Below, in pieces: positions 42,219 to 63,061 of a DNA stretch of 64,000 nucleotides. Within the stretch, counting starts at the first letter, position 1. Each line of letters begins with the position of its first letter. A program made the translations under genes and the position numbers. Under the pieces are notes generated by a model. The model was not told where the DNA came from. It made no database searches and worked only from the letters and a program-made list of their open reading frames with translations. The stretch is from Geobacter sp. (GTDB lineage Bacteria > Desulfobacterota > Desulfuromonadia > Geobacterales > DSM-12255), in assembly GCA_009886125.1 (NCBI GenBank), contig VFJK01000094.1:1-64000 (forward strand), written 5' to 3'.

Positions 42219-42974
42219 GTGAAGATCGAGTCAGGAGTGAATCAGGTATCAGCACCACGGATAGCACTGGTAGTCGGAGGGAGCAGAGGGATAGGCCGTT
42301 CTATCGCCGTGAGGCTGGCAGCTTCCGGTTTCCATATATGGCTCACCTACAAAAGCAACCACGAAGCTGCTGCACTGGTCAAAAAAGAGATCGAGGACGT
42401 TGGCGGCAGCTGTGAGACATTCGCTTTCGATGTCAGCAGCTACGAGGAGGTCGAGGCAGCATTGGCAGGCCGTCTTGAAACCAGTTCGCCGGAAGTCCTG
42501 GTGTTCAACTCCGGGGTCACCCGGGACAACCTGCTCATGTGGATGAGCAAGGAGGAGTGGGACACTGTTCTTGGCACCAATCTTGACGGATTTTTCAATG
42601 TGACGAGGCAGGTCGTTTTTTCCATGCTGAAGGCGAAGAAGGGGAGGATCGTTGTCATCTCCTCGACTTCAGGACAGACAGGGCATGCCGGACAGGTGAA
42701 TTACTCGGCATCCAAGGCCGGTCTTATCGGCGCTGCCAAGGCTCTTGCCCGTGAAGTCGGTAAAAAGAACATCTTTGTGAATGTTGTCTCCCCTGGTTTT
42801 ATCGAGACCGATATGACTTCGGACATCCCCAAAGTGCAGGTCCTTCCTCTGATACCGCTCAACCGGATCGGCCGCGTTGAAGATGTCTCTTCCGTGGTCA
42901 ATTTTCTCTGCACCGAGCAGAACATGTACATTCATGGACAGGTAATCGGTGTCAACGGCGGGTTGGTGATGTAA
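42219..42974 (+). CDS. FabG-like 3-oxoacyl-ACP reductase
   Basis: 251 aa classical SDR from GTG 42219. Cofactor motif GGSRGIGRSIA (residues 20-30), catalytic Asn121, Ser148/149, Tyr162 and Lys166 (NYSASK), and a C-terminal GQVIGVNGGLVM. It is the only ketoreductase near the polyene-type cluster and would reduce the beta-keto group after each extension. It is followed by a strong terminator and separated from the main operon by a minus-strand operon, yet is the natural KR partner. Confidence 0.85.
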   Translation: MKIESGVNQVSAPRIALVVGGSRGIGRSIAVRLAASGFHIWLTYKSNHEAAALVKKEIEDVGGSCETFAFDVSSYEEVEAALAGRLETSSPEVLVFNSGVTRDNLLMWMSKEEWDTVLGTNLDGFFNVTRQVVFSMLKAKKGRIVVISSTSGQTGHAGQVNYSASKAGLIGAAKALAREVGKKNIFVNVVSPGFIETDMTSDIPKVQVLPLIPLNRIGRVEDVSSVVNFLCTEQNMYIHGQVIGVNGGLVM

Positions 42975-47225: not shown

Positions 47226-48443
47226 GTGAATAGAGTCGCGATAACCGGATACGGAATAATCTCCTGCCTTGGCAATACCGTCGAAGCAGTCGGTCATTCA
47301 TTGAAAATGGGGGAATCAGGGATCATTTTTGATGAGGTCCGTCAGGGTCTAGGGTTCAGAAGCCCCTTGACCGGAGCAATTTGCGGTTTTGATGAACGGG
47401 CTCTCCTGACAAAAAAACAGTGCAAAACCATGCCGGATTTTGCCGTTCAGGCTCATACGGCCGCAGTCGATGCCCTTCAGATGTCCAGGCTTTCGCCGGA
47501 AGAGATCGAAAATGAAGAGACGGGACTGATCTTTGGTTGTGATTCCAGCTGCATTGCGGCTATTGAGCAGGTCGACCTGCTTCGTGAAAAAGGGGAGACC
47601 AAGCAGATCGGCAGCGGGCATGTATTCCGGTCCATGACCTCCTGTGTCACGATGAACCTGAATACGTTGCTGAAGACCCGCGGCGCCTGCTGGACCATAA
47701 GCTCAGCCTGCTCCAGCGGCGGACATGCAGTCGGACAGGCTGCTGACCTTATTGCCTTCGGACGCCAGGAGCGGGTGATCTGCGGCGGCGCGCAGGAGAT
47801 AAACTGGCAGTCGATGTGCAGCTTCGATGCGCTTTCCGCTTTTTCGACCAGGCTCGATGATCCCAAGAGGGCTTCCCGTCCCTTCGATGCCGCCCGTGAC
47901 GGACTGGTCCCCAGCGGTGGTGCAGCCGCTCTGGTCCTGGAGAGGTATGACCTGGCTGTCGCCAGAGGGGCGACCATTTTCGGTGAAGTCAAGGGGTATG
48001 CCTTTTCATCCGATGGCAGTCATATCTCGGTCCCGAGCCAGAACGGCTTGCAGAGAGCGATGCGCAAAGCGATATCCCTTGCCGGGATAAAACCGGCTGA
48101 TATCGATTACGTCTGTGCCCATGCGACATCGACTCCTGCAGGGGACGCTGCCGAGGCGAACAATATCTCTGCAGTCTTCGGCCCGGCGACTCCGCCCGTC
48201 TCATCCCTGAAATCCATGACCGGTCATGAACTCTGGATGTCCGGTGCTTCCCAGGTCGTCTACTCCGCGATCATGGCACAGCAGGGGTTTATTGCGCCGA
48301 ACATCAACTTTACCGAACCGGACGAGTTCTCTGCCAAACTCAATATTGCTGCCGAAAGGATCGACCGGGCACCTGAACATATTCTCTGCAACTCTGCTGG
48401 ATTCGGCGGGACCAACTCCTGCCTTTTGCTCAGGTTCTCTTGA
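47226..48443 (+). CDS. Beta-ketoacyl-ACP synthase (KS 1)
   Basis: 405 aa from GTG 47226 behind GAGGG. Complete Cys-His-His site: Cys162 in SSACSSGGHA, His299 in AHATST and His334 in KSMTGHELW. FabB/FabF-type condensing enzyme. First gene of the long plus-strand operon; its stop overlaps the next ATG by one base. The region before the second His (MTGHE rather than the usual GH.xGAAG) is unusual. Confidence 0.88.
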   Translation: MNRVAITGYGIISCLGNTVEAVGHSLKMGESGIIFDEVRQGLGFRSPLTGAICGFDERALLTKKQCKTMPDFAVQAHTAAVDALQMSRLSPEEIENEETGLIFGCDSSCIAAIEQVDLLREKGETKQIGSGHVFRSMTSCVTMNLNTLLKTRGACWTISSACSSGGHAVGQAADLIAFGRQERVICGGAQEINWQSMCSFDALSAFSTRLDDPKRASRPFDAARDGLVPSGGAAALVLERYDLAVARGATIFGEVKGYAFSSDGSHISVPSQNGLQRAMRKAISLAGIKPADIDYVCAHATSTPAGDAAEANNISAVFGPATPPVSSLKSMTGHELWMSGASQVVYSAIMAQQGFIAPNINFTEPDEFSAKLNIAAERIDRAPEHILCNSAGFGGTNSCLLLRFS

Positions 48444-49930
48444 TGAAGTACGACTTCGTCGTTATCGGTGCAGGGGTTTCCGGGCTCACTTCTGCCCTGC
48501 TCCTGGCCAAAAGCGGCTATCATGTCGCTATCGTCGAGAAATCGGATCAAATCTCCCCCCTCCTGAGAGGGTTCACCCGCAAAGGTGTTCATTTCGACAC
48601 CGGTTTCCATTATACGGGCGGCCTGGGCCCCGGGGAGCCGCTTGATATCATCTTCCGCTACCTGGGACTTTCGGATCATCTGACCACGTTTCATTTTAGC
48701 GAACAGGGATTCGACATTTTCCGAAGCATCAAAGACGGGTTCGAATTCCAGTTCCCGACAGGATACGAACTGATACGGGAAAAACTGGTTGCAGGGTTCC
48801 CTGACGAAGCAAAGGCAGTTGACACCTACCTGCAGATGGTACGAACAGTCTGTGCTTCAATGCCCTATCTGAATATTGATATCGATTTCAACGAGACCAG
48901 CCTCCTTCAGGGGCTGGATGACAGGACACTTCAGGAAACGCTCGATGCGCTTACCGCTAACAAGCATCTCAAAGCCCTGCTTTCGATGCATTGCGTTCTA
49001 TACGGGGTGCCTCCGGGCGAAGTCAGTTTCTCCCAGCACGCCTGCATAGTAGGCAACTATTACCAGTCGGCGATGGGTATCCGGGGTGGAGGTCTCAGCC
49101 TGGCAAAAGCATTCGATGTCAGGTTGAAGGATCTGGGGATCGATGTTTACTGCGGCAGCATGGTCAGTGAGATACTCCTGTCACCTGAAGGCGCCGTCTC
49201 CGGAGTGAAGCTTGCTAACGGTACCGAACTGGCCTGTTCGGGGTGCATGTCAACCATACACCCGGTGACCATGCTTGACCTGCTCCCTGAGGAGACCTTC
49301 CGGTCGGCTTACAGTAATCGTCTCCGGGATCTGAAGGAAACCCTCTCAGCGTATATGATTTATGCTGTCTCCGACAGAGCCATACCATTTCTGGCCGGTT
49401 CCAACCTGTTTGTGTTCCCGGATGTCGATGACCTGAGCAACATGGGGGTCAGGCCGCTTGAACAGAACCTGCTTTACCTGACAGCTGCATACAAGGGAAC
49501 AGAGAGTGAACCGATGGGGTTCATCGGTATATCGCCTGCTTCTTTCGAACAGACGGCTGCCTGGAAGAACTCGACAACCGGCAGGCGCCCTGACGATTAC
49601 CGGGTTTTCAAGGATGATGTCATCACACGGCTGAAGTGCCATATAGATTCGTATTGTCCTGAGTTGCGAGGGACTATGACGTATACCGAAGCCTCAACGC
49701 CGCTCTCGGTAAGGGATTACAATAATACCCCGCTAGGCGGTCTCTACGGGATCAAACACATGGTTGGTCAACGAAATCCCTTCCCTGTCACAAAGGTAAA
49801 AGGGCTTTTCCTTGCCGGACAGGCTATAGTATCTCCCGGTATTATGGGGGCGGCTCTTTCCGCATTCATATCCTGCGGGAATATTCTGGGTCACGATCGA
49901 CTAAGGAAGGAACTACGGGCATGCAGTTGA
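48443..49930 (+). CDS. CrtI/phytoene-desaturase-like FAD oxidoreductase
   Basis: 495 aa from ATG 48443, overlapping the KS 1 stop. FAD dinucleotide motif VVIGAGVSGLTSALLLAK (residues 6-23), then EKSDQ with the ribose-binding Glu, FDTGFHYTGG, and a C-terminal FAD tail GLFLAGQAIVSPGIMGAAL. Family members desaturate or isomerise polyene/isoprenoid chains. No phytoene synthase or other carotenoid gene is in the window, so the substrate is probably the ACP- or lipid-bound chain made here. Confidence 0.83.
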   Translation: MKYDFVVIGAGVSGLTSALLLAKSGYHVAIVEKSDQISPLLRGFTRKGVHFDTGFHYTGGLGPGEPLDIIFRYLGLSDHLTTFHFSEQGFDIFRSIKDGFEFQFPTGYELIREKLVAGFPDEAKAVDTYLQMVRTVCASMPYLNIDIDFNETSLLQGLDDRTLQETLDALTANKHLKALLSMHCVLYGVPPGEVSFSQHACIVGNYYQSAMGIRGGGLSLAKAFDVRLKDLGIDVYCGSMVSEILLSPEGAVSGVKLANGTELACSGCMSTIHPVTMLDLLPEETFRSAYSNRLRDLKETLSAYMIYAVSDRAIPFLAGSNLFVFPDVDDLSNMGVRPLEQNLLYLTAAYKGTESEPMGFIGISPASFEQTAAWKNSTTGRRPDDYRVFKDDVITRLKCHIDSYCPELRGTMTYTEASTPLSVRDYNNTPLGGLYGIKHMVGQRNPFPVTKVKGLFLAGQAIVSPGIMGAALSAFISCGNILGHDRLRKELRACS

Positions 49931-51153
49931 GAAGGGTGGTAATAACCGGAATGGGGATCATCTCACCATTCGGTCGCGGGATCGGCACCCTGATGGATGG
50001 ACTTGTCGAAGGGAGAAGCGGCGTTGTCAATGTCCCGGAACTGGCCGAGATCGTCGGGATGAGGACCCGGGTCGCTGCGCTGGTGCCGGGCATAGATCCA
50101 AAGGAGATCCCGAGAAAGTTCAGACGCTCCATGTCGAGCATGTCCGTGTTTGCCACGCTGGCTTCACACGATGCCGTTGCCCAGGCGGGATTAACCGAAG
50201 CCGAGGTCACCGGAGGTCGGCTGGGGGTCTCCATCGGTTCGACTGTCGGAAGTCCTCAGACCATGCAGGACTTTTTCAGGGATTTCAGCATCGACAACAG
50301 CCTTGAGAGGATGAAATCCACGATCTTCTTCCATATAATGAACCACAGCTGCGCTGCAAACGTCTCCCAGACTCTGGGCATTACCGGTCGGATACTCTCT
50401 CCTTCGTCGGCGTGCTCCACCAGCTGTCAGGCAGTAGGCTATGCTGCCGAGATGATAGCAGGCGGCAAGCAGGACTTCATGCTCTGCGGTGGGGCGGATG
50501 AATTCCATCCACTGACCTCGGCGACATTCGATGTCATGAATGCAGCTTCAATAAATTTCAACGACTCACCGACAATGACGCCACGTCCTTTTGACCGTGA
50601 CCGTGACGGGGTAGTCTGTGCAGAGGGGAGCGGGATCCTGCTGCTTGAGGCTCTTGATTCGGCTCTTGCACGCAATGCCACTATTCTGGCGGAGATTTCC
50701 GGTTTTGCCACTACCTCGGATCCTGCCAGTATCGCCAATCCCAATGCAGCCAATATTGCCCACTGCATGAATATGGCATTACTTGATGCAGGAGTAACTC
50801 CAGCTGAGGTTGACTATGTCAATGCCCATGCAACATCGACCGAGCAGGGGGACATTGCCGAGAGTGAAGCTGTTTTTTCGGTTTTCGGCGGGAAAGTCCC
50901 GACAAGCAGCCTGAAAGGGAACCTGGGCCATGCAATGGCTGCAAGCGGGACCCTGGAGCTGGCAGCCTGCATAGAGATGCTGCGCAACGGGTATCTGCTG
51001 CCGACCAACAACCTTGAAAACATCGATCCTTTATGCGGACAGATCCAGCATGTACAGGAACTTATTCATATACCGGTCAACACGGTGATCAAAAACAATT
51101 TTGCCTTGGGTGGCGTAAACTCATCCATAATTTTAAGGAGATACAACCAATGA
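49921..51153 (+). CDS. Beta-ketoacyl-ACP synthase II-like (KS 2)
   Basis: 410 aa, FabF-like and complete: Cys165 in SSACSTSCQAVG, first His in NAHATSTEQGD, second in KGNLGHAMAASG. Overlaps the FAD enzyme by 10 bases and the ACP gene by 4. The tight coupling to the only ACP gene suggests it is the main elongating KS or starts the chain with an aromatic unit. Confidence 0.9.
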   Translation: MQLRRVVITGMGIISPFGRGIGTLMDGLVEGRSGVVNVPELAEIVGMRTRVAALVPGIDPKEIPRKFRRSMSSMSVFATLASHDAVAQAGLTEAEVTGGRLGVSIGSTVGSPQTMQDFFRDFSIDNSLERMKSTIFFHIMNHSCAANVSQTLGITGRILSPSSACSTSCQAVGYAAEMIAGGKQDFMLCGGADEFHPLTSATFDVMNAASINFNDSPTMTPRPFDRDRDGVVCAEGSGILLLEALDSALARNATILAEISGFATTSDPASIANPNAANIAHCMNMALLDAGVTPAEVDYVNAHATSTEQGDIAESEAVFSVFGGKVPTSSLKGNLGHAMAASGTLELAACIEMLRNGYLLPTNNLENIDPLCGQIQHVQELIHIPVNTVIKNNFALGGVNSSIILRRYNQ

Positions 51154-51413
51154 CCGACCAGGAGATTGTCGAGCAGATTAACATCTCTATTGCCAAGGAG
51201 TTTGAGCTGGATCAGGATACCCTGACCCCTGAAACGACACTTTTTGAAGACATGGGGCTGGACAGCCTGGACATCGTCGATCTGGTAATAGTTCTCGAAG
51301 CCGCATTCAGTTTCAAGATCCGTGAAGAGGAGGCTATCCGGAAGATACAGACTCTGGGCGATATCCATACCTTTGTGATCAACAAGAAAAGGGAACAAGA
51401 GAACAAGGCCTAG
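51150..51413 (+). CDS. Acyl carrier protein
   Basis: 87 aa from ATG 51150 with TAAGGAG upstream; longer in-frame starts lie in KS 2. Phosphopantetheine attachment Ser39 in DMGLDSLD. Acidic four-helix protein carrying the growing chain. It is the only ACP seen, whereas characterised aryl-polyene systems use two. Followed directly by the acyltransferase gene. Confidence 0.92.
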   Translation: MTDQEIVEQINISIAKEFELDQDTLTPETTLFEDMGLDSLDIVDLVIVLEAAFSFKIREEEAIRKIQTLGDIHTFVINKKREQENKA

Positions 51414-52211
51414 ATGACCGGGATTCATCAAAAGAGTCAGAATTGCCCGGCTTCGAGAAGGAAACAGCCGATCAGCTCCTTGTTCATGACATTCAGTTTT
51501 TATCCGCTGATGCTAGCCTGGATACTGCTCAGTGTGATCCTGGCGCCCGTGCTTTTTCTGATCTGCAAAGTGTCGACCGGCTGGGAGACTGCCCGCATCA
51601 TACGGTTCCTTATCAGGATCCACGGACGCGGAATGATTGTAATCGTTTCTCCCTTTATCACGCTTGGAAGAATAGACCTGGAAGCGATACAGCGTCCCTG
51701 CATACTCGTTGTCAATCACCTCTCTTTTTTCGACGGATATTTCATGGCAGCACTTCCTTTTTACGACATGGCCTTTGCTGTCGGCGCCTGGCCGTTCAGA
51801 ATGTTCTGGTATTCCGTATTTATGCGCCTTGCCAACTATATCGATGTCGAAAGTACCAGTTGGGAGGAGACACTTGCTGTCTGCAGAAAGGTTTTCTCCA
51901 GCAATGCCGGTTTGTTGATCTTTCCGGAAGGGCATCGGAGCAGGACCGGCAGTATCCAGCAGTTCCAGTCCGGGGCTTTTCGTCTTGCCGTCGAGACGGG
52001 GATGCCGGTCGTCCCTTTGTGTATCACCGGCACAGATACGCTGCTCCCGCCCGGGAATTACCGGCTCCATCCTTCCCGGATCTGTCTGAAGGCACTGCCT
52101 CCGGTTGACCCGGCGACATTTACCGGATCGTTCCGTCACATAAAGATGAGCAGGTACGTGCATAATCTCATGTCCAACGAGATCGAGCGGATGAAGGCGG
52201 AAAAGTGCTGA
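51414..52211 (+). CDS. PlsC-like lysophospholipid/acyl acyltransferase
   Basis: 265 aa. One N-terminal helix (about 30-55), HX4D in NHLSFFDGY near residue 100 and the FPEGHRSRTG motif near residue 170, both diagnostic of PlsC. In aryl-polyene loci such enzymes are thought to move the product onto a lipid anchor. The ATG follows the ACP stop directly; the next gene overlaps by 7 bases. Confidence 0.87.
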   Translation: MTGIHQKSQNCPASRRKQPISSLFMTFSFYPLMLAWILLSVILAPVLFLICKVSTGWETARIIRFLIRIHGRGMIVIVSPFITLGRIDLEAIQRPCILVVNHLSFFDGYFMAALPFYDMAFAVGAWPFRMFWYSVFMRLANYIDVESTSWEETLAVCRKVFSSNAGLLIFPEGHRSRTGSIQQFQSGAFRLAVETGMPVVPLCITGTDTLLPPGNYRLHPSRICLKALPPVDPATFTGSFRHIKMSRYVHNLMSNEIERMKAEKC

Positions 52212-53533
52212 GCATGGACGCCGGAATCAACATGTTCGATGCGGTTAGCAACCGCGATATGGATCGTGGCTCCGGAGAAGGGATTGCCGCTCTGCAGCAG
52301 CGCCTTCTGCAGCAGCATGTTGCCTATGCGGCAGCGCTGTCCCCGTTTTATCGCCGGCTGTTCAAAGGATTGAATTCTCTGGATATGAAAAGTCCTGCTT
52401 CTCTTGCAGCTCTTCCCTTTACCGCCAAGAGCGACCTGGAAGCAGATTATGCCGATTTCCTGGCAGTTCCGGAAGAGGAGATCGTCGATTTCTGTCTCAC
52501 TTCAGGAACGACCGGCAAACCGGTTGCCATGCTGCAGACCGGCAGAGACCTTGACCGGCTTGGTTACAATGAGGAGCTCTCTTTCCGGGGAGCAGGGATC
52601 ACGAAAGATGACCGTGTCCTGATTGCCGCTGCCATCGACCGCTGCTTTATGGCGGGATACGCCTACCTACTCGGCCTGGGTCGAATCGGTTCGACAGCCG
52701 TCAGGGGCGGATCAAGCAATGTTGCACAGTTATTGGAGCTGATAAGGATCAGCAGGCCTACGGCAGTTGTCGGAGTCCCTTCTCTTCTCCTTGCGGTCGG
52801 TGAGCGGTTCCTTCTGGAAGGTACCGACCCGGCAGGACTCGGTATCGCGAAATTGATCTGCATCGGTGAACCGGTCAGGAATCCGGATCTTTCCCTGTCT
52901 CCGCTCGGAAGCCGGCTGTCAGGCTGCTGGAACTCCCGGATATTCGGAACCTATGCCAGTACTGAAATGGCCACTGCGTTTACCGACTGCGACTGCGGGA
53001 AGGGTGGGCATCTTCGCCCCGATCTGGTGATTGTCGAAATCGTCTCTGATGATGGCACCGTGTTGCCGCCCGGAGAGTACGGTGAAGTGGTGGCGACTCC
53101 TCTCCAGGTGACAGGCATGCCCCTGGTACGCTTCAGGACCGGCGATATTGCCGCGATCCATGATGCTCCCTGCGACTGCGGACGAAACTCGGTCAGGCTC
53201 GGCCCGATCGTCGGCAGGAAATCGCAGATGCTCAAATACCGGGGGACTACGGTCTATCCTCCGGCGATCTGTTCGGTTCTCCAGGGGATCAAGGAAGTGC
53301 GGGGCCATTACATTGAGGTCTACAGCGATTTCGATCTCAGTGACCGGATCAGGGTCGTTGTCGGCACTTCTGATCCGACTCTGACTCCCGAGTGCCTTGC
53401 AGAGCAGATATCAGCAACGATCCGGGTAAAACCGGAGGTCTCCCTGGCTACTCCGGAAGAGGTGACGGGGAGAACCCTGCAGGATAATAAGCGTAAGCCG
53501 GTGACGTTTTTTGATTACCGCGGCAGGAGGTAA
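52205..53533 (+). CDS. AMP-dependent ligase, phenylacetate-CoA-ligase-like
   Basis: 442 aa, GTG 52205 (AAGG at 7 bases) or ATG 52214. Adenylation motif LTSGTTGKPV near residue 98, the YASTEM region near residue 252, and Cys-rich DCDCGKGGH and CDCGRNSV typical of PaaK-type ligases. Probably activates an aryl acid (cinnamate- or benzoate-type) and loads it as starter onto the ACP, after the ammonia-lyase encoded next. Confidence 0.83.
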   Translation: MLSMDAGINMFDAVSNRDMDRGSGEGIAALQQRLLQQHVAYAAALSPFYRRLFKGLNSLDMKSPASLAALPFTAKSDLEADYADFLAVPEEEIVDFCLTSGTTGKPVAMLQTGRDLDRLGYNEELSFRGAGITKDDRVLIAAAIDRCFMAGYAYLLGLGRIGSTAVRGGSSNVAQLLELIRISRPTAVVGVPSLLLAVGERFLLEGTDPAGLGIAKLICIGEPVRNPDLSLSPLGSRLSGCWNSRIFGTYASTEMATAFTDCDCGKGGHLRPDLVIVEIVSDDGTVLPPGEYGEVVATPLQVTGMPLVRFRTGDIAAIHDAPCDCGRNSVRLGPIVGRKSQMLKYRGTTVYPPAICSVLQGIKEVRGHYIEVYSDFDLSDRIRVVVGTSDPTLTPECLAEQISATIRVKPEVSLATPEEVTGRTLQDNKRKPVTFFDYRGRR

Positions 53534-53547
53534 CTTGTCAGAGATTT

Positions 53548-53626
53548 GACCACCCCTAGCCCCTCCTGAATCAGGAGGGGGACTTTGCAGGCTCCCCTCC
53601 TTGATAAGGAGGGGTGGGGGGTGGTC
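53548..53626. repeat. 79-bp GC-rich palindromic intergenic repeat
   Basis: Outer arms GACCACCCC (53548-53556) and GGGGTGGTC (53618-53626), with two internal hairpins CCCCTCCT-GAATC-AGGAGGGG and CCCCTCC-TTGATAA-GGAGGGG. Resembles the small GC-rich palindromes dispersed in many genomes. It interrupts the operon between the ligase and ammonia-lyase genes. Confidence 0.7.
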
Positions 53627-53675
53627 GAAGCAGAGCCATCATAAATAATTCTAATCCACAGCGAAGGAAATTATC

Positions 53676-55259
53676 ATGTCAGATCGTCCTACAGTCCTCT
53701 TAAACGGTAATGACCTTACCATCGAAGATATCGTCGCCATCGGTGTCGGCGACAAGCAGGTTGCACTCGATCCTGCTGCCCTTGAACGCTGCCGCGCAAG
53801 CCGCCAGTTCCTTGAGGAAGAGGTGGCTGCAAAGCGCGTCATCTACGGCGTTAACACCTCATTTGGTCCGATGTGCAACAAGATCATTCAGGACAGCGAG
53901 ATAGAGGCCCTTCAGGTGAACCTTATCCGGAGTCACGCTGCCGGACTTGGCGATCCGCTGAAGCCGTACGTATCTGTAGCGATCATGGCAGTCCGCCTTA
54001 ACACCCTGGTCAAAGGGTACAGCGGTGTAAGGATCGAGCTTCTGGAGTTCATGCAATGTATGGTCAATCAAGGGATCGCCCCCTACATTCCGGAATGCGG
54101 CAGTGTCGGGGCATCCGGCGACCTGATCCATCTGGCGCACCTCTCACTGGCAATAATCGGCGAAGGGGAATCATACTACCAAAACGAGCTTCGCAGGACC
54201 GCCGACATCTTCATCTCTCTGGGCATCACTCCGTTTCGCCTCAGCTTCAAGGAAGGAATCGCCCTGATGAACGGCACCAGTGCCATGACGGCTCTGGCAG
54301 CCTTTGCCCTGTTCGGGGCCAGGAAACTTCTCCGGGTCAGCTGTGTGACCGGTGCCTTTGCACTTGAGATCTTCGGCGGTATCGATGATGCCTTTGACGA
54401 GGATCTGCACCGGGTAAAACCCCATCCAGGACAACTCGAAATCGCTGAGACCATCAGGAGACTTTACGAGGGATCGGGCAATATCACCCTCAGGAAGGAC
54501 ATGCACGACCTGATCCGGCAACAGGAGACCGATGGGCCGGTGTACGAGACAAGCATCAATGTCCAGGATGTCTACTCCATCAGGTGTACTCCCCAGGTGC
54601 TTGCACCGGTCAGCGAGGCAATCGATTTTGCCTGCCGTATCGTGGAGACCGAGGCGAACTCTTCCAATGACAACCCGATCATCATACCGGAAAAGAAAAA
54701 GATCATCCACGGCGGCAATTTTCACGGTCAAAGCATCAGTTATGCCATGGACATGCTCTGCATCGCTATCTCCACCCTCTGCAACCTTTCAGAAAGAAGG
54801 ACCAACAAGTTCCTTGACAAGAACCTCAACGAGGGGCTCCCCGAGTTCCTGATCCCCGGGACATTGGGGTTGACCATGGGATTCATGGGCGCCCAGTACC
54901 TCGCGACTTCTACAACAGCTGAAAACAGACAACTCTCCAATCCTGTCAGTACGAACTCCATCTCCTGCAACGCTTCCAATCAGGATGTGGTGAGCATGGG
55001 AACCGTCGCAGCCCGCAAGGCTTTCAAGTCGGTGAGCAATGCCAAGCATGTAGTGACGCTGGAAGTCCTTGCCGACCTTCAGGCCCTTTCATTCAGAAAT
55101 GCCGACCGGCTTGGAACGGCGACCCGTCGCATCTTCAATATTCTGAACAGCGAGTTTACGCAGTATGACAACAGTCGGGTTTTCCACGACGATCTGGTCA
55201 AATTCAGGAAACTGCTTTTTTCCAGTCAGATTTTCGATGACCTGGGTCAATACTATTAA
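53676..55259 (+). CDS. Aromatic amino acid ammonia-lyase (HAL/TAL family)
   Basis: 527 aa. MIO-forming triad Ala146-Ser147-Gly148 in GSVGASGDL; catalytic Tyr58 in YGVN. At the specificity position the sequence is Arg85-Ser86-His87, the Ser-His pair usual in histidine ammonia-lyases, while a well-known tyrosine lyase has His-Leu. Context with an aryl AMP ligase and polyene genes argues for Tyr (giving coumarate) or another aromatic substrate. Preceded by SD AAGGA after a repeat. No hut genes are near. Confidence 0.87.
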   Translation: MSDRPTVLLNGNDLTIEDIVAIGVGDKQVALDPAALERCRASRQFLEEEVAAKRVIYGVNTSFGPMCNKIIQDSEIEALQVNLIRSHAAGLGDPLKPYVSVAIMAVRLNTLVKGYSGVRIELLEFMQCMVNQGIAPYIPECGSVGASGDLIHLAHLSLAIIGEGESYYQNELRRTADIFISLGITPFRLSFKEGIALMNGTSAMTALAAFALFGARKLLRVSCVTGAFALEIFGGIDDAFDEDLHRVKPHPGQLEIAETIRRLYEGSGNITLRKDMHDLIRQQETDGPVYETSINVQDVYSIRCTPQVLAPVSEAIDFACRIVETEANSSNDNPIIIPEKKKIIHGGNFHGQSISYAMDMLCIAISTLCNLSERRTNKFLDKNLNEGLPEFLIPGTLGLTMGFMGAQYLATSTTAENRQLSNPVSTNSISCNASNQDVVSMGTVAARKAFKSVSNAKHVVTLEVLADLQALSFRNADRLGTATRRIFNILNSEFTQYDNSRVFHDDLVKFRKLLFSSQIFDDLGQYY

Positions 55260-55346
55260 CCATGCTATTCATTTACAGCTCCTAAGGAAGGCTTCCTGTC
55301 ATGCACCTTGCAATTTCGATCCATAGACATACTCCGGTGATCTGCC

Positions 55347-55805
55347 ATGAATGCTGACCTGGCTCTGCCGATGTCTGCCTCCCGGCTCATTCCTCACCGT
55401 CCGCCTATGCTTCTGGTAGACCGGCTTCTCACTGCTGAATCCGGTTCAGGGACGGTGGAAGCCTGCTTTGATTCAAGTTCCATTCTGGTGAACAGCCGGG
55501 GGGAGGTGGATGAGGTGGTCCTGGTCGAGCTGCTTGCCCAGGGGTACGCTGCCATAAAAGGATATGAAGATCTCTGCAATGAAACTCCGGTCAAGGAGGG
55601 TTTTCTTGTCGGCGTCCGTAAACTGAGAATATCCGGACAGGCGTTTGCCGGGGACAGGCTTCACATAACCATCAGGACTGTCGGCACCTTTGAGGGGTTT
55701 GCCGTTGTAGAGGGGGAGATACGGCGCAAAGATGAGATCATTGCCGCCGGCACCCTGAAACTTTTGCTGGTCGATGACAGCGTCCTGGACGGAGGAAGAT
55801 CGTGA
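55347..55805 (+). CDS. Hot-dog 3-hydroxyacyl-ACP dehydratase subunit A
   Basis: 152 aa FabZ-like. IPHRPPMLLVDRL at residues 15-27, and the catalytic-acid helix VELLAQGYAA with Glu61 and Gln65 in FabZ register. The catalytic His that should be 14 residues earlier is Leu47, and no HFPG is present. The dehydratase at 59483 has the opposite defect. Overlaps the LolA-like gene by 4 bases. Confidence 0.82.
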   Translation: MNADLALPMSASRLIPHRPPMLLVDRLLTAESGSGTVEACFDSSSILVNSRGEVDEVVLVELLAQGYAAIKGYEDLCNETPVKEGFLVGVRKLRISGQAFAGDRLHITIRTVGTFEGFAVVEGEIRRKDEIIAAGTLKLLLVDDSVLDGGRS

Positions 55806-56431
55806 GACTCTTCTTGCTGCTGGTTTTTATGATCCTTTCTGCTTCCTCGGTAACCATGGCAGCGGAGACGAAAGGGAGTCCCGTTTCTTCTGCGCTCCTG
55901 AGCCGCCTGGAGCAGAGTGCCGGAGGGGTGAAGTCTCTTTCCAGCGATTTTATCCAGGAGAAGCATCTCAGCATGTTCAAGACGGTGCTTACCTCCAAGG
56001 GGCGTTTCTACTACAGCAGACCGGATCTGCTCCGCTGGGAACTGACCTCTCCGGTCGCCTCAGGATTTGTGTTGAAGGGTGACAAGGGTCGACGCTGGAA
56101 TGAGCGTTCAGGCAGAAGCGATTCTTTCGTGATCAGCCAGGAGCCGGTGATGAAGCTTGTGTCGGAGCAGCTCTTTGCCTGGGCCAAGGCTGATTTTGTC
56201 TGGCTCAGGAAAGAGTACCGGATCAACGTGCTTGAGGAGTCGCCTGTCGTGCTCCGCCTGGAGCCGCTTTCCAGCGCGACTGCCGGGTTCCTGAGCCATC
56301 TGCTGATCAGCTTCAGTCCTGACGGCAGGTATGTAAGAGCCGTAGAGATCCGGGAAAAGGATGGTGACTTTACCAGGATCAGGTTCGTGAATACTGCAGT
56401 CAACAAAACGCTGCCAACGGACCTTTTCTAG
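55802..56431 (+). CDS. LolA-like outer membrane lipoprotein carrier protein
   Basis: 209 aa from GTG 55802. Signal peptide (MRLFLLLVFMILSASSVTMA, cut near residue 20). LolA-type beta half-barrel: QEKHLSMFKTVLTSKGRFYY and PDLLRWELTSP near residues 55-85. Aryl-polyene clusters carry such genes; it is thought to shuttle the lipidic product across the periplasm. The next gene starts directly after its stop. Confidence 0.85.
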   Translation: MRLFLLLVFMILSASSVTMAAETKGSPVSSALLSRLEQSAGGVKSLSSDFIQEKHLSMFKTVLTSKGRFYYSRPDLLRWELTSPVASGFVLKGDKGRRWNERSGRSDSFVISQEPVMKLVSEQLFAWAKADFVWLRKEYRINVLEESPVVLRLEPLSSATAGFLSHLLISFSPDGRYVRAVEIREKDGDFTRIRFVNTAVNKTLPTDLF

Positions 56432-58810
56432 ATGACGGTCCCCTCGTTCACCCTGTTTGCACGGATCTATGGCTATCTCTCCACCCGCCGCAAGGCTCTT
56501 TACGGGATAACCCTGCTGGTCGTGATCCTTGGGAGCCTGCTCTCTGCCAGGATACATCTCCAGGAGGATATCGTAGCGATGCTCCCGGACGATGGTTCGT
56601 CTGTGGCGCAGGATTTTCAGCTGCTCCAGCTTGCCCCTTTCTCACGGAAGGTGGTCATTACCCTGAAAGGGGGCACGAACACCGATACAGCGGCTTTGAC
56701 AACAGTTGCCGACCGTCTGGCCCAGGGGCTTGTCGGGACCGGGATCACCAGTGTGACGACCGGTCCGGCAAATATGGCCGGCGGGTTCTTCGGCTGGCTG
56801 GTTCAGTCTCTGCCAAGCCTGGTCACGGAACAGGAGCTTGTCCAGATTGCTGCAGCGACAGCTCCTGTTGAAGTGAAAAGCAGTCTCAGGAAGAGTTATG
56901 AACAGCTTCTGGCTCCTGAAGGGTGGGCACTGAAAGGGAGTATTCAGAACGACCCGCTCTCCTTCTCCACGATCGCCCTGGCCAGGCTGCAGTATATGAA
57001 CATGATCCCGAACATGCGGCTGGTAAACAACCATTTTGTAAGTGCTGACGGGAAAAGTGCCCTTCTTGTTGCCGACAGCACCGTCCCTATGACCGATTCG
57101 GCCGGCGCACGGCTCCTCATGGAGCGGATTCAGAGCCAGATCGCTTCGATCGTCCCTCCTGAGATGACAACATCGGTTATCTCCGGGCATCGATACACAT
57201 TGACGAATGCCGATACGATCAAGAAGGACCTCTTCATCATCCTGACGTTCAATTTGATCGCTCTCCTGGCGATCTACATATTTTTCCTCAGAAGCCTGAG
57301 TGCCGTTTTTGTCTTTCTGGTCCCTTCCGCGATCCTTATCATCGCTTCCGGAGTCCTTGCCCTGATCAGCAGGGATGTTTTCGCTGTCACACTCGGCTTT
57401 GGAGGAGTACTCCTCGGCATTGCCGATGAGTATGCGATGTTGATCTACTTCTCCTGCCGACAAGGGGGGAAGGATCCGGGCACAATCACCGGTGAAGTCG
57501 CCAGACCGGTGCTTTTCGGCGCGATCGCCACACTGCTCTCCTTCGGGGTCATGATGTTTTCAAGCCTTCCGGGTCAGCGGCAACTCGCCATTTACAGTAT
57601 GACAGGGATTGTAGCATCGCTCCTGATCTCCCTGCTGGTCCTTCCTCATCTTATCAAGCCGGAGCCGACAGATATCAAGCAGAACCTTTCCCGGCCCTGG
57701 CTGAACAGGTTCCCGCGCCCGCTGGTCATCGCTGTATGGCTGCTCGTTCTGGCTCTCTGCGGCTGGCAGGCGAGCAGGGTCCGCTTCAATGGCGATATGC
57801 GGACGGTCAGCATGGTCTCCCCGGAGCTTCGACAGGCCGAAGAGGAACTGGTCAAAACCTGGGGAGACATGCGCGGCAAGGCGATGCTCTTTGCCGAAGG
57901 GAAAGACCTTGATTCAGCTCTTGCACTCAATGACCGCCTTTTCAACAAGCTGTCAGGCCGCATTCCAGCCGGCGACCTGGTCAGTCTCTCCCCGCTTCTG
58001 CCGAGCAGTGGGAGCCAGCAGGCAAGCCGGGAGCGCTGGGCAAAGTTCTGGCAGGAAGGACGGGCAGTGCAGCTCGCAGCAGACCTGAAGCGCGAGGGGA
58101 GCGGTTTCGGTTTTTCACCGGAGGCCTTTGCTCCCTTTCTCAAAAACCTGAATTCACCGCCGCTGGCGACAACCATCGAGGACCTGCGGGGCGCAGGTAT
58201 GGGGGAGATGGTCGATTCCATGATCATCCGGTCAAACGGAGTGGTCCGGGTTCTGACTCTTGTGCCCGACCGACCTGAGATAATAGCCGCCCTTGATCCT
58301 GATCTGCGGACCCTACCCGGGGTCCGGCTCGTCTCCCAGAGCCGCTTCGGTGACAATGTGAGCCGGGCGATCATAAAGGATTTCACCCGGTACATGGTCC
58401 TTACCTCACTACTGGTCCTTGCCCTGGTTATCGTCCTGTTCAGGAAACCGTCACGCATCATGCTGGTCCTGGTCCCGGTCATAACCGGGCTGGTCTGCAT
58501 GCTGGGGATCATGGGGATGCTGGGTATTGAGTTCAATATCTTTAACATCGCAGCGACCATTCTCGTGATCGGACTCTGCGTCGACTACGGCATCTTCATG
58601 GTCTGCAGGCTGACTGAGGGGTCTAACCATGCGGCCGGCAGGGCGGTCCTGGTCTCCGGGCTGACGACCCTGGCAGGTCTGGGCTCTCTGGCCCTGGCAA
58701 AGCATCCATCGATGCACTCTATTGGCATCACGGTCCTCCTTGGTATCGGCGCAGGCATTTCAGCTGCGCTTCTGGTGATACCGGCACTCTGCCGAAAGGA
58801 TGCTCCTTGA
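56432..58810 (+). CDS. MMPL/RND-family lipid exporter
   Basis: 792 aa: one N-terminal helix, periplasmic domain (about 45-260), five-helix block (about 265-400), a second periplasmic domain and a final five-helix block (about 650-790). GIADEYAMLIYFS near residue 335 and GLCVDYGIFMVCRL near 710 are the MMPL-type D-Y charge-relay segments. Probably exports the polyene lipid over the inner membrane with LolA and the DUF3261 lipoprotein. Confidence 0.88.
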   Translation: MTVPSFTLFARIYGYLSTRRKALYGITLLVVILGSLLSARIHLQEDIVAMLPDDGSSVAQDFQLLQLAPFSRKVVITLKGGTNTDTAALTTVADRLAQGLVGTGITSVTTGPANMAGGFFGWLVQSLPSLVTEQELVQIAAATAPVEVKSSLRKSYEQLLAPEGWALKGSIQNDPLSFSTIALARLQYMNMIPNMRLVNNHFVSADGKSALLVADSTVPMTDSAGARLLMERIQSQIASIVPPEMTTSVISGHRYTLTNADTIKKDLFIILTFNLIALLAIYIFFLRSLSAVFVFLVPSAILIIASGVLALISRDVFAVTLGFGGVLLGIADEYAMLIYFSCRQGGKDPGTITGEVARPVLFGAIATLLSFGVMMFSSLPGQRQLAIYSMTGIVASLLISLLVLPHLIKPEPTDIKQNLSRPWLNRFPRPLVIAVWLLVLALCGWQASRVRFNGDMRTVSMVSPELRQAEEELVKTWGDMRGKAMLFAEGKDLDSALALNDRLFNKLSGRIPAGDLVSLSPLLPSSGSQQASRERWAKFWQEGRAVQLAADLKREGSGFGFSPEAFAPFLKNLNSPPLATTIEDLRGAGMGEMVDSMIIRSNGVVRVLTLVPDRPEIIAALDPDLRTLPGVRLVSQSRFGDNVSRAIIKDFTRYMVLTSLLVLALVIVLFRKPSRIMLVLVPVITGLVCMLGIMGMLGIEFNIFNIAATILVIGLCVDYGIFMVCRLTEGSNHAAGRAVLVSGLTTLAGLGSLALAKHPSMHSIGITVLLGIGAGISAALLVIPALCRKDAP

Positions 58811-59490
58811 GTCAAAGATTGGTAACGCTCATACTGTCGATTATGCTGATTCAGGGCTGCGTCAGCAGTAAAGTCCCGTTCCAGGGGACGGAGCTGATTC
58901 CGGTCAGCCCGATGACGACTGCCGCACTTGTCGGCCATCTCTGGAGTTCCGGCAGCGGCAGGTATCTGATCAGGCAGTCAGCACTTTTCGAGTTTCAGGG
59001 GAGTAGCATCCCTATCGAAGGGATGATGAGGCTTGATCTGGATAAGAAGCAGGGACGGCTCGTAGCCATGAACGAGATGGGGGTCAAGCTGTTTGACCTT
59101 GTCGTTGACCCCGCGACCAGCGAGTCACTCTTTGTGATACCGGAACTGATGCGCTATCCGGGCTTTACGGAAGCTGTGGCGATCTCGGTGAGAAGGATCT
59201 TTCTCTCCCCAGGGCCTTCACCGGATGATACCCTGGTTCTTGCTGACAAGAGCTATCTGCTGACCCGGACTCAGGATAACCGTACCCTTCGTTTTGTCCT
59301 AGGAGGACGTGACGTTCAGATGATAGAGAAGTCATCGGTATCAAGTGACGAAGCGTGGCGTGTACGCTACTTCGAGTTCCAGCAAGACCAACAGTTACCA
59401 TTCCTGCCACGGGGTATTGTGCTGGATGATGAACGTGCGGGATACCGCCTGACACTTTGGCTTGAAAGCGTGGAAAAGACCGATGAATAG
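58807..59490 (+). CDS. DUF3261-type lipoprotein
   Basis: 227 aa from TTG 58807. Lipobox LIQGC with Cys18, then a mostly beta domain. This position, after an MMPL exporter and LolA-like gene, is that of the DUF3261 protein in aryl-polyene clusters. Likely an outer-membrane receiver for the exported lipid. The next gene overlaps by 8 bases. Confidence 0.78.
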   Translation: MSQRLVTLILSIMLIQGCVSSKVPFQGTELIPVSPMTTAALVGHLWSSGSGRYLIRQSALFEFQGSSIPIEGMMRLDLDKKQGRLVAMNEMGVKLFDLVVDPATSESLFVIPELMRYPGFTEAVAISVRRIFLSPGPSPDDTLVLADKSYLLTRTQDNRTLRFVLGGRDVQMIEKSSVSSDEAWRVRYFEFQQDQQLPFLPRGIVLDDERAGYRLTLWLESVEKTDE

Positions 59491-59869
59491 ACTCAAACAG
59501 GAAATCATGGCAGCGGCAGCAGGCAGGATCACCAGTGACGAAATGAAATCCGTGGCCCGCAGCTACCGCTTTCCGGAAAGTTTTATCGGATTTTCCGGCC
59601 ATTTCCCCGGGAACCCCATACTCCCCGGCATTGTCCAGCTCCTGACCGTCGTTTCCCTGATCGAGGAGCATACCGGTACTGAGCAGAAGTTACTGGCCGT
59701 CGAGGATGCGAGGTTCCTGAACCCGATCCTGCCTGATCAGGAGATACTGGTACAGTGTCAGCAGCGGACTGTCCGGGGTAAATTGCTTCACGAAGCCCGG
59801 CTGACGGTCAGCGACAGACCGGCTGCTTCATTCCTCATCCAGTTGCGGACCGTTGAGGGTATCTCGTGA
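59483..59869 (+). CDS. Hot-dog 3-hydroxyacyl-ACP dehydratase subunit B
   Basis: 128 aa from ATG 59483. FabA/FabZ catalytic His40 in GHFPGNPILPG is present, but the acid expected 14 residues on is Leu54 (PGIVQLLTVV). It thus keeps the half of the active site that the 55347 protein lacks; a heterodimer is likely. Ends 37 bases before KS 3. Confidence 0.82.
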   Translation: MNRLKQEIMAAAAGRITSDEMKSVARSYRFPESFIGFSGHFPGNPILPGIVQLLTVVSLIEEHTGTEQKLLAVEDARFLNPILPDQEILVQCQQRTVRGKLLHEARLTVSDRPAASFLIQLRTVEGIS

Positions 59870-59906
59870 GCCCGATATATTTCTCCAGACAGGTAAGGGT
59901 TTTTGC

Positions 59907-61034
59907 ATGAACCGTGTGTATGTTACAGCCGCTGCCGCACTGTCCGGACTGGGACCTGATCTGGAGACTCTCTGGCAGAGATTGCTGGCAGGAGAATCTG
60001 CTGTCCGTCCGATAGAGAGATTTGCAACCGACCGGTACATCACCAACAATGCGTCCTGGATCGCCGGACTCGAACCGGAGAGTGGACGGTCCAGGATCTA
60101 TCCGCTGCTGGAGCTGCTCCTTGACGGGTTTCCACCGGTACCGGCTGGCACGGTTCTGATAACTGCGACCACCAAGGGCTGCATCGACAGTATGGAACAG
60201 CTCCAGAAAGGTCTTGCGGGAGATCCTCACGACCTCCAGGTGGAACACCTGCTGCAGTGGCTCGGGAGAAAATATCCCGTCTCTTCCGCCATCAATATCA
60301 ATGCTGCCTGTGCATCCTCGACAATCGCCGTTGCCCGCGCTGCCGCGCTTATTGCCAACGGTCGGTGCGAGTCGGTACTTGTACTCTGTATGGACCTGTT
60401 AAGCGAGTTTGTGTTTTCGGGTTTTTCAGCCCTTCAGGGACTTGCAATCAATACCTGCCGTCCTTTTGACCTGAACCGGAACGGCCTCTCGCTCGGTGAA
60501 GGAGGGGGAGCCTTGCTGATGATGAGCGGAGCTCTGGCACGGAGGGAAAAACGTCCTCTTCTCGGCGTCATTGCCGGTTGGGGCGCAGCGAACGATGCCA
60601 CCCATATAACCGCTCCGGCACGGGATGGCTGCGGACTGGTACAGGCAGTGACACAGGCTTTGAAAAAAGCGGGTATCGGTCCGGATGATATCGGGGCGGT
60701 CAGCGCCCACGGGACCGGGACAGTCTACAATGATCAGATGGAGCTTACCGCTTTTAAAGCGCTTTTCGGAGACCGCCAGCTTCCGATGCACTCGGTCAAA
60801 GGAGCAATCGGCCATACGCTCGGGGCTGCCGGAGGGATAGAAGTCGCTGTCGGACTGAGATCGCTGCAGAGCGGAGTCCTGCCGCCGACCGTTGGCTTGA
60901 CAGACCCGGCTCCGGGGGCTGAAGGGCTTTTCAGCAACAGAGAGCAGCAGTTGACCGGTGACTGTCTGCTGACAACGAATTCCGGTTTCGGTGGTGTCAA
61001 TGCGGCCCTGATCCTTCAGAGGGGAGAACTGTGA
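59907..61034 (+). CDS. Beta-ketoacyl synthase (KS 3, ApeO-like)
   Basis: 375 aa from ATG 59907 with AGGTAAGGG upstream; an ATG at 59853 lies in the dehydratase. Full Cys-His-His: Cys135 in AACASSTIAV, His in SAHGTGTVYND and KGAIGHTLGAAGG. Directly coupled (TGATG) to the chain-length-factor-like gene, as in the ApeO:ApeC pair of aryl-polyene synthases. Confidence 0.88.
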   Translation: MNRVYVTAAAALSGLGPDLETLWQRLLAGESAVRPIERFATDRYITNNASWIAGLEPESGRSRIYPLLELLLDGFPPVPAGTVLITATTKGCIDSMEQLQKGLAGDPHDLQVEHLLQWLGRKYPVSSAININAACASSTIAVARAAALIANGRCESVLVLCMDLLSEFVFSGFSALQGLAINTCRPFDLNRNGLSLGEGGGALLMMSGALARREKRPLLGVIAGWGAANDATHITAPARDGCGLVQAVTQALKKAGIGPDDIGAVSAHGTGTVYNDQMELTAFKALFGDRQLPMHSVKGAIGHTLGAAGGIEVAVGLRSLQSGVLPPTVGLTDPAPGAEGLFSNREQQLTGDCLLTTNSGFGGVNAALILQRGEL

Positions 61035-61744
61035 TGGATGTCGCACTTTCAGGGATCGGCTGGGTCACCCCGTCCGGGATCGGCTGGGGAGGAGGGGGGC
61101 AGCGTTTTGATCTGACTCCGGGGGCACTTCCGGTTTTGACCAGGAAGGAGGTCTTCCCGGAACCGAATCAGCGTTTTGGGCGCCAGTCTGAATATTCCAA
61201 GATAGGGCTGGCATCCATAGCATTTGCCCTTCGTGATGCCGGGCTGGAAACCTGGACCGAAAAGCGCCCGGTCGGGATCATGGCAGCATCCCAGCTCGGC
61301 TGTCTCACGACAGATCTGGACTATTTCCATACTGTCCTGCCGCAAGGGGGAAGTCTTCCCAGTCCCAACCTGTTTGCCTACACACTGGCAAACTGTTTCA
61401 TGGGTGAAGCAGCGATCCAGTTCGGTCTTACCGGTTCGACCATGGTCATCAACGAGGCCGGCCAGAGTGGTGCTGCCTCGCTCAGGATGGCTCTGGAGAG
61501 CATTGCCTGGGGTGAGCATGATACCATGCTTGCAGGGATCTGCGATCTTCAGGCTCCGGTGCAGTTTGCAGAATCCTTTACGACGACTCCCGGGGCGCTG
61601 TTTATGGTCCTGTCCGGTCAGCCGTCCCACCAGCGCCCGGGGTACGGCGCCTTGTCTCTTGCCGGAAACGGCTCAATACTTTATAACGGCAAGGAAGCTG
61701 CCGGCATTGTCGAGCTGTTACATACCTGCCTGTCAGGCAGATAA
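61034..61744 (+). CDS. Truncated KS-like chain-length factor (ApeC-like)
   Basis: 236 aa from ATG 61034 (GTG 61031 possible). Matches only the N-terminal half of a KS. The nucleophile position is Gly143 in INEAGQSGAAS where active KSs have ACSSG, and both catalytic His regions are missing. So it cannot condense alone; it fits the ketoacyl-synt_2-type chain-length factor that pairs with KS 3. Confidence 0.85.
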   Translation: MDVALSGIGWVTPSGIGWGGGGQRFDLTPGALPVLTRKEVFPEPNQRFGRQSEYSKIGLASIAFALRDAGLETWTEKRPVGIMAASQLGCLTTDLDYFHTVLPQGGSLPSPNLFAYTLANCFMGEAAIQFGLTGSTMVINEAGQSGAASLRMALESIAWGEHDTMLAGICDLQAPVQFAESFTTTPGALFMVLSGQPSHQRPGYGALSLAGNGSILYNGKEAAGIVELLHTCLSGR

Positions 61745-61795: not shown

Positions 61796-63061
61796 ATGAA
61801 GATGACCCTGATCTACCCGAGCTGGCCGAAACTTGACCGCCAGACAGAGTTTCACCTCCCCCCCCATGGCCCGGTTGTTTTTGCTGCGACTGTACCCAAA
61901 ACGGTGGAATTGCACTTTATCGACGAGAACCTTCAGAAGATCGATTTCTCGGAGAATTGTGACCTGGTCGGCTTGTCGGTCATGCTCACCTGTCAGCTAC
62001 CGAGGGCCTTCGAGGTTGCTGCCGAGTTCCGGAAACAGGGGATTCCGGTCATCTTCGGCGGCATTGCTACCATGCTTCACTCCGATGAAGTCGCCCTGCA
62101 TGCTGATTCGATCTTCCTCGGCGAGGCGGAAGGGCGCTTTGCTGCAGTAATCGACGATTTCCAGTCCGGCGGGATGAAGAAAGTCTACAACTACATGGAC
62201 AACCCGCCCGATGCCGGGCTGATCGGGACTGCCCGGAGGGAGATCCTGAACCGCGAGCTTTATAACTACCGCGGTGTGCAGATGCTTGACCTGGTGCATG
62301 CCTCCCGCGGCTGCAAATTCGACTGTTTCCCCTGCTGCACCGGCTTTCTCGGCGGGAAGAACTTCCGCCCCAGGCCGATCGACAAGGTGATCCAGGAGCT
62401 GGAAGCAATACAGAACAACCGGCTGTTTATTGTCGACAACTCTCTCTCCCAGGACCGGCAGTGGCTTATCGACCTTTTTACCGCCATGGCTCCTCTCAAG
62501 AAAAAATGGGTCTCCCATCCGATCCTGGATGATGACCAGATCCTCCGGCTTGCTGCAGATGCCGGCGCCTGGTATGTCTATCAGGCAGTCTTCGACACCT
62601 CCGATGTGATCCGGAACAGGATCAAAAGGCTCAAGGATCACGGCATCGCCATAGAGGGGACGATCATCCTCGGGACTGATGAGCAGGATGAGGATTATAT
62701 CAAGCGTCTTGTCGATTTCCTGCTGGAAGTCGAGCTGGATGTCGCTGAGTTCACGATCCTGACCCCCTTTCCCCACTCTCCTATCCGGGCAAGTCTTGCC
62801 GCTGAGGGGCGGATCCTTTCGAGCGACTGGCTTAAATACGGCGCCGACAAGGTGGTGTTCCAACCGAAGCTGATGACTCCGGAAAAGCTGCAGGAGATGT
62901 ATCATTATGCCTGGAATACCTTCTATGCAGATGGGGGGCACGCGATCAAGATGGGGAAACTCTTCAGGAAGGTCATCCAGCGTGAGATGGAGGACGATAC
63001 CTACTACCGCTATAACCCGCGGATGAAACGTTCTTTTGCGAAGCAGAAGAGTCAGCCATGA
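61796..63061 (+). CDS. B12-binding radical SAM enzyme (second of the lipid cluster)
   Basis: 421 aa, SD AGGAGAG. N-terminal B12-like fold (KMTLIYPSWPK..., VIFGGIATMLHSDEVALHADSIF); radical SAM CxxxCxxC in SRGCKFDCFPC near residue 172; GTDEQDEDY and LTPFPHSPI later. Shorter and divergent from the first copy: the Cys motif ends FPC rather than FC. Its 4-base overlap with the next radical SAM gene suggests consecutive steps or a complex. Confidence 0.82.
   Translation: MKMTLIYPSWPKLDRQTEFHLPPHGPVVFAATVPKTVELHFIDENLQKIDFSENCDLVGLSVMLTCQLPRAFEVAAEFRKQGIPVIFGGIATMLHSDEVALHADSIFLGEAEGRFAAVIDDFQSGGMKKVYNYMDNPPDAGLIGTARREILNRELYNYRGVQMLDLVHASRGCKFDCFPCCTGFLGGKNFRPRPIDKVIQELEAIQNNRLFIVDNSLSQDRQWLIDLFTAMAPLKKKWVSHPILDDDQILRLAADAGAWYVYQAVFDTSDVIRNRIKRLKDHGIAIEGTIILGTDEQDEDYIKRLVDFLLEVELDVAEFTILTPFPHSPIRASLAAEGRILSSDWLKYGADKVVFQPKLMTPEKLQEMYHYAWNTFYADGGHAIKMGKLFRKVIQREMEDDTYYRYNPRMKRSFAKQKSQP

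Follow-up and report, generated by a model that had tools for sequence, protein, structure and literature searches.

The 64-kb window studied here, that is, the whole analysed stretch of DNA of 64,000 nucleotides, belongs to a 3.57-Mb draft genome of the class Desulfuromonadia and carries a type II polyketide synthase (PKS) cluster spanning 47226 to 61744. Two genes of this cluster encode dehydratase-like hot-dog proteins, P1 and P2, each with only one half of the catalytic dyad of FabZ, in which each of the two active sites pairs the His of one chain with the Glu of the other. Sites built from residues of both subunits have been described for hot-dog dehydratase dimers (PMC2698920). The locus raises the question of whether P1 and P2 are two defective enzymes or the two halves of one, as the original prediction proposed.

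A polyene-type cluster with two half sites

The cluster (Table 1) runs in the order ketosynthase, FAD oxidoreductase, ketosynthase, ACP, acyltransferase, FlxY-like ligase, aromatic ammonia-lyase, P1, LolA, MMPL exporter, DUF3261, P2, ketosynthase and short CLF-like protein. This gene set is that of aryl-polyene and flexirubin clusters.

Table 1. Genes of the PKS cluster and the candidate ketoreductase in the window.
Feature	Position	Strand	Evidence
Short-chain dehydrogenase, candidate ketoreductase of the cluster	42219..42974	+	Pfam adh_short/KR; homologues in related clusters
Ketosynthase (FabB-like)	47226..48443	+	
FAD-dependent oxidoreductase	48440..49930	+	
Ketosynthase	49921..51153	+	Best NCBIfam PRK09116
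Acyl carrier protein	51144..51413	+	Pfam PP-binding E 1.1e-9
Lysophospholipid-type acyltransferase	51414..52211	+	
FlxY-like acyl-CoA ligase (starter activation)	52205..53533	+	NCBIfam FlxY E 9.3e-129, below cut-off
Aromatic amino acid ammonia-lyase (starter supply)	53676..55259	+	Pfam Lyase_aromatic E 8e-167; FlxA E 1e-144, below cut-off
ApeP-like hot-dog dehydratase subunit P1	55347..55805	+	Glu61, Gln65, Leu47 at His position; pLDDT 95; top fold match 6qsr_B (ApeP)
LolA-like carrier, export module between both dehydratase genes	55802..56431	+	Pfam LolA E 8.6e-20; NCBIfam LolA2_flexi E 1.4e-31, below cut-off
MMPL-family exporter	56432..58810	+	Pfam MMPL E 2.6e-15
DUF3261 (LolB-like) protein	58807..59490	+	Pfam DUF3261 E 4e-5, above cut-off
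ApeI-like hot-dog dehydratase subunit P2	59483..59869	+	His40, Leu54 at acid position; pLDDT 95; top profile match 6qsr_A (ApeI)
Ketosynthase, ApeO position	59853..61034	+	Pfam ketoacyl-synt N and C
Short chain-length-factor-like protein, ApeC position	61031..61744	+	Pfam ketoacyl-synt N domain only; 237 aa

In lyase-type clusters a ketoreductase gene lies directly upstream of the first ketosynthase. The window has no ketoreductase gene at that place; its likely ketoreductase gene is separated from the cluster by 4.3 kb on the upstream side, with a block of genes on the opposite strand in between, and its product is closer to those of the radical-SAM fusion clusters described below (E about 1e-120) than to those of lyase-type clusters (E about 1e-80). 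Several genes for B12-binding radical SAM proteins border the cluster at either end (43206-44543, 61796-63061 and 63058-64000; also L208:1368-2858), and a BtrH_N/DUF4872 protein is encoded at 44563-45567. Another open frame, of 2360 aa (G000:C164:110-2305), contains three FabA-like dehydratase stretches and is possibly a polyunsaturated-fatty-acid type synthase.

The translations bear out the residues named in the original prediction. P1 (152 aa) has E61 and Q65, and L47 stands at the position of the FabZ catalytic His, 14 residues before E61, which is the FabZ His-to-Glu spacing. P2 (128 aa) contains GHFPGNPILPGIVQLL, in which H40 is followed at the same 14-residue spacing by L54, the occupant of the FabZ Glu position. 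Neither protein is complete alone, as had been claimed: in the translations and the family columns no other residue completes the dyad in P1 or in P2. The ordinary FabZ of the same genome has both His and Glu in one chain; judged by this mark of FabZ membership, neither P1 nor P2 is a FabZ.

AlphaFold monomer models, built on the relatives collected in this study, gave confident hot-dog folds for both proteins (mean pLDDT 95.0 for P1 and 95.2 for P2). In these models E61 of P1 lies on the central helix (57-77), while H40 of P2 lies in the loop before helix 49-64, which bears L54. The top fold match of P1 among all PDB chains was 6qsr_B (ApeP, TM 0.84), from the entry entitled 'The Dehydratase Heterocomplex ApeI:P from Xenorhabdus doucetiae'. 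For P2 the best fold matches were FabZ chains, and chain A of 6QSR was absent among the best 50 listed. The family sequence profiles placed each protein with one chain of the heterocomplex: P1 matched 6qsr_B first (1.4e-17), and P2 matched 6qsr_A first (4.3e-11), followed by 3ESI. Both proteins score below the cut-offs of the corresponding Pfam families, P1 with 16 of 27 bits for ApeP-like PF22817 and P2 with 21.6 of 28.5 bits for ApeI-like PF22818. Since P1 and P2 each align with FabZ over most of their length, the fold matches alone do not prove a heterodimer over a homodimer.

Conservation of the complementary pattern

Relatives of P1 and P2 were gathered from 277 genomes of the Desulfuromonadia. 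The window itself is part of the following tallies; at one additional locus P1 is truncated. Among the P1 proteins the Glu is present in 59/59, always together with the Gln, and the His in 0/59, its position being taken by Leu (36), Phe (20) or Met (3). All 60 P2 proteins have the His and none has Asp or Glu at the acid position, which is occupied by Leu (45), Gln (6), His (4), Met (3), Arg (1) or Val (1). P1 and P2 lie on one contig at 58 loci, usually about 4.1 kb apart, and the complementary pattern is unbroken in all 58 of these pairs. Of the 277 genomes, 67 contain strong relatives of both proteins, against 7 with such a relative of P1 only and 3 with one of P2 only (Fisher p 4e-52). In eight of these ten singleton genomes the expected place of the partner falls past the contig start; the other two are G030 and G081.

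Among the loci of Geomonas and relatives (L068-L070, L073, L129-L131), the ApeI-like protein of Geomonas has His at the acid position (VEIHxVVSL), so that it carries His at both dyad positions.

The 3.7 kb between the P1 and P2 genes of the window is a point against their pairing. In a near relative (L128, P1 58% identical), however, the P1 stop overlaps the P2 start by four bases (8080-8083), and in three further lineages (L183, L191 and L194) the two genes adjoin or overlap. This overlap and adjacency favour joint production of the two proteins and also their pairing.

A scan for the P1 family in 84,980 species genomes yielded 80 loci, from Desulfuromonadia, Lentisphaerae, Planctomycetota including Brocadiaceae, Nitrospirae, Elusimicrobia, Kiritimatiellia, Gammaproteobacteria and Pandoraea. 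The survey was extended with Pseudomonadota loci having Pfam ApeP-like matches and Bacteroidota loci having flexirubin lyase matches. Removal of duplicates and of three complete-dyad FabZ ORFs matched by both profiles left 162 unique ApeP-like and 113 unique ApeI-like sequences; removal of these ORFs rested on the dyad itself together with the double profile match, which brings a small circularity into the following counts. The Glu is present in 162/162 ApeP-like sequences and the His in 0/162, while the His is present in 113/113 ApeI-like sequences. The acid column of the latter holds Asp or Glu in 18 of 113 and a non-acidic residue in 95. It is Asp in most aryl-polyene loci of Pseudomonadota, Gln and His in two loci of that phylum, and Glu in a few loci of Planctomycetota, Lentisphaerae and Kiritimatiellia.

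No natural fusion of P1 with P2 was seen among the surveyed loci. The ORFs matched by both profiles (L200, L201 and one ORF of L182) were considered as fusions and rejected, being complete-dyad FabZ.

The half sites are thus neither chance nor a local pseudogene, because the complementary pattern is kept in all the same-contig pairs of the class and across phyla.

A proposed two-part dehydratase and its alternatives

P1 and P2 very probably make up a single 3-hydroxyacyl-ACP dehydratase of the ApeI:ApeP type, each being a different half of a heterodimer with a single composite Glu/His site. The two proteins would pair like a FabZ dimer, with P2 giving the sole His (H40) and P1 the sole Glu (E61, with Q65), so that exactly one site would work. 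Because the His is only on P2 and the Glu only on P1, such a heterodimer would contain a complete site and an empty one; the second site (Leu47 of P1 and Leu54 of P2) would be dead, and either homodimer would be without a complete site. The enzyme would dehydrate the 3-hydroxyacyl-ACP after every ketoreduction round of the type II PKS. The starter of the PKS is probably 4-coumarate or a similar product of the ammonia-lyase, which the FlxY-like ligase would activate, and the LolA/MMPL/DUF3261 module would export the aryl polyene product. We infer the physical pairing of P1 with P2, the position of the dyad across their interface, the activity and the product; the pairing is what would be expected by homology with ApeI:ApeP. 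The shared-dyad heterodimer of the original prediction is, with the chains of 6QSR as top matches, the best explanation of the data.

P1, P2 or both might instead pair with the ordinary FabZ of the genome, giving mixed dimers with one working site each. A complete FabZ is indeed present, and the PDB holds a FabZ complexed with another hot-dog protein (9a6k, YCSD-FABZ). We regard such pairing as very unlikely, given that P1 and P2 co-occur almost perfectly while FabZ-like weak matches occur in many genomes without both, that in each pair of the class one protein retains the dyad residue that the other has lost, and that the homologous ApeI and ApeP were solved together as a heterocomplex (6QSR). 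There is a still smaller chance that P1 and P2 are non-catalytic ACP- or substrate-binding proteins and that FabZ does the dehydration. Each of them is without half of the standard dyad, as that would allow, but the dyad residues still present rank with the best-conserved positions of both families: Q65, P16 and E61 are the three most conserved columns of P1, and G39, H40 and F41 are among the most conserved in P2, with H40 invariant. Loss of catalysis is not expected with dyad halves so conserved, and the solved relative is a dehydratase heterocomplex.

Least probable of all is that P1 and P2 each act as a homodimer with a non-standard catalytic residue, for example H17 of P1, which is nearly invariant (160/165). 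H17 was rejected as a substitute for the His, since it belongs to a PHRxP motif that is common in full-dyad FabZ and stands alongside the full dyad in the FabZ of the same genome and in the PDB FabZ rows. For P2, no conserved Asp/Glu column was found anywhere in the aligned ApeI-like sequences.

The missing acid and comparison with known systems

If P1 and P2 form the composite site proposed above, the residue at position 54 of P2 would belong to the dead one. The acid in P2 is not needed for a site made of P2-His and P1-Glu. The acid column of P2 ranks 46 of 122 by entropy; its free variation, with H40 and E61/Q65 of P1 fixed, is as expected if the site of the acid was already dead. The acid is absent from the ApeI-like partner in the branch of the window, in flexirubin clusters of Bacteroidota and in several other lineages. 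A tree of P2 relatives (66 rows, the two FabZ rows of L200 and L201 counted as acid) contains at least three changes of acid state; having few columns, long branches and an unsure root, it neither dates nor orients these losses. On balance we favour a reading in which single-site heterodimeric dehydratases would be the rule in polyene type II PKS clusters of many phyla. After the loss of the His from ApeP, the partnerless acid of ApeI would have drifted and been lost, among other lineages, in Elusimicrobia, in flexirubin clusters and in the branch of the window, leading by a neutral ratchet to reciprocal dependence.

From FabZ, P1 and P2 differ in carrying one dyad residue each, whereas FabZ is a homo-oligomer with His and Glu in one chain; the hot-dog fold, the 14-residue His-to-Glu spacing and, in P1, the PHRxP motif are shared.

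Flexirubin clusters encode the ammonia-lyase FlxA, the ligase FlxY, LolA and two dehydratases, FlxF and FlxS (PMC3992019). The lyase and ligase of the window reach 482.6 of 700 bits for NCBIfam FlxA and 429.8 of 520 for FlxY, and by these scores they are clear relatives of FlxA and FlxY, not equivalogs. In Bacteroidota clusters with a flexirubin lyase the half sites are complementary in the same way, with acid and His both lost: the ApeP-like protein has Phe at the His position and the ApeI-like protein has Gln at the acid position. They differ from the window in having two side-by-side ApeP-like copies in four of the nine genomes examined. In L240, L242, L247 and L251 both neighbouring ApeP-like genes have Phe at the His position and keep the Glu, and the ApeI-like protein is single where found, with Gln at the acid position.

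In another subgroup (L116:1148-2632, L118-L121, L123, L124, L158, L160, L162-L165, L168, L170, L171, L175 and L178) the ApeP-like domain stands at the C-terminal end of a frame of roughly 500-680 aa. The N-terminal part of the L116 fusion, the only one scanned, is a Radical SAM + SPASM enzyme. No aromatic ammonia-lyase gene was present at any of the 12 fusion loci examined (two of them short contigs), and in L212 the fusion gene follows the ligase, at the place of the ammonia-lyase gene; together these suggest a different supply of starter units in the fusion clusters.

The closest parallel is the ApeI:ApeP dehydratase heterocomplex of Xenorhabdus doucetiae, reportedly described by Grammbitter et al. 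in 2019. Common to such systems and the window is a polyene type II PKS cluster that encodes KS/CLF, LolA, MMPL and DUF3261 along with two different hot-dog proteins, an ApeP-like one having Glu without His and an ApeI-like one having His. The ApeI/ApeP dehydratases of Acinetobacter baumannii have been described as heterodimeric, with just one active site (PMC8041823). P1 is 21% identical to 6qsr_B, and the starter genes of the window are the lyase and the FlxY-like ligase, not ApeH. The dehydratase genes are also swapped around LolA-MMPL-DUF3261: the ApeP-like gene comes before this module and the ApeI-like gene after it in the window, whereas the order in E. coli CFT073 is ApeI, glycosyltransferase, thioesterase, LolA, MMPL, DUF3261, ApeO, ApeP and reductase. 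At the acid position 6QSR, 3ESI and the ApeI of E. coli CFT073 keep Asp where P2 has Leu54; this Asp is not universal even in Pseudomonadota and was not treated as defining. The match to ApeI:ApeP in the original prediction therefore holds for kinship with the chains of 6QSR and not for reciprocal incompleteness, as the canonical ApeI keeps its Asp.

Genes of the P1 and P2 type are best annotated and expressed as pairs, as a single one would resemble a dead FabZ. The ApeI:ApeP arrangement is extended here to many uncharacterised clusters of Desulfuromonadia and other phyla and to flexirubin clusters, and partners with His-Asp, His-Glu or His only provide a natural series for studying how paired enzymes grow mutually dependent. 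This kind of enzyme is already known from aryl-polyene clusters, and the pair of the window is a distinct variant of it: classical ApeI:ApeP is degenerate on one side, whereas P1 and P2 are degenerate on both and would be reciprocally dependent.
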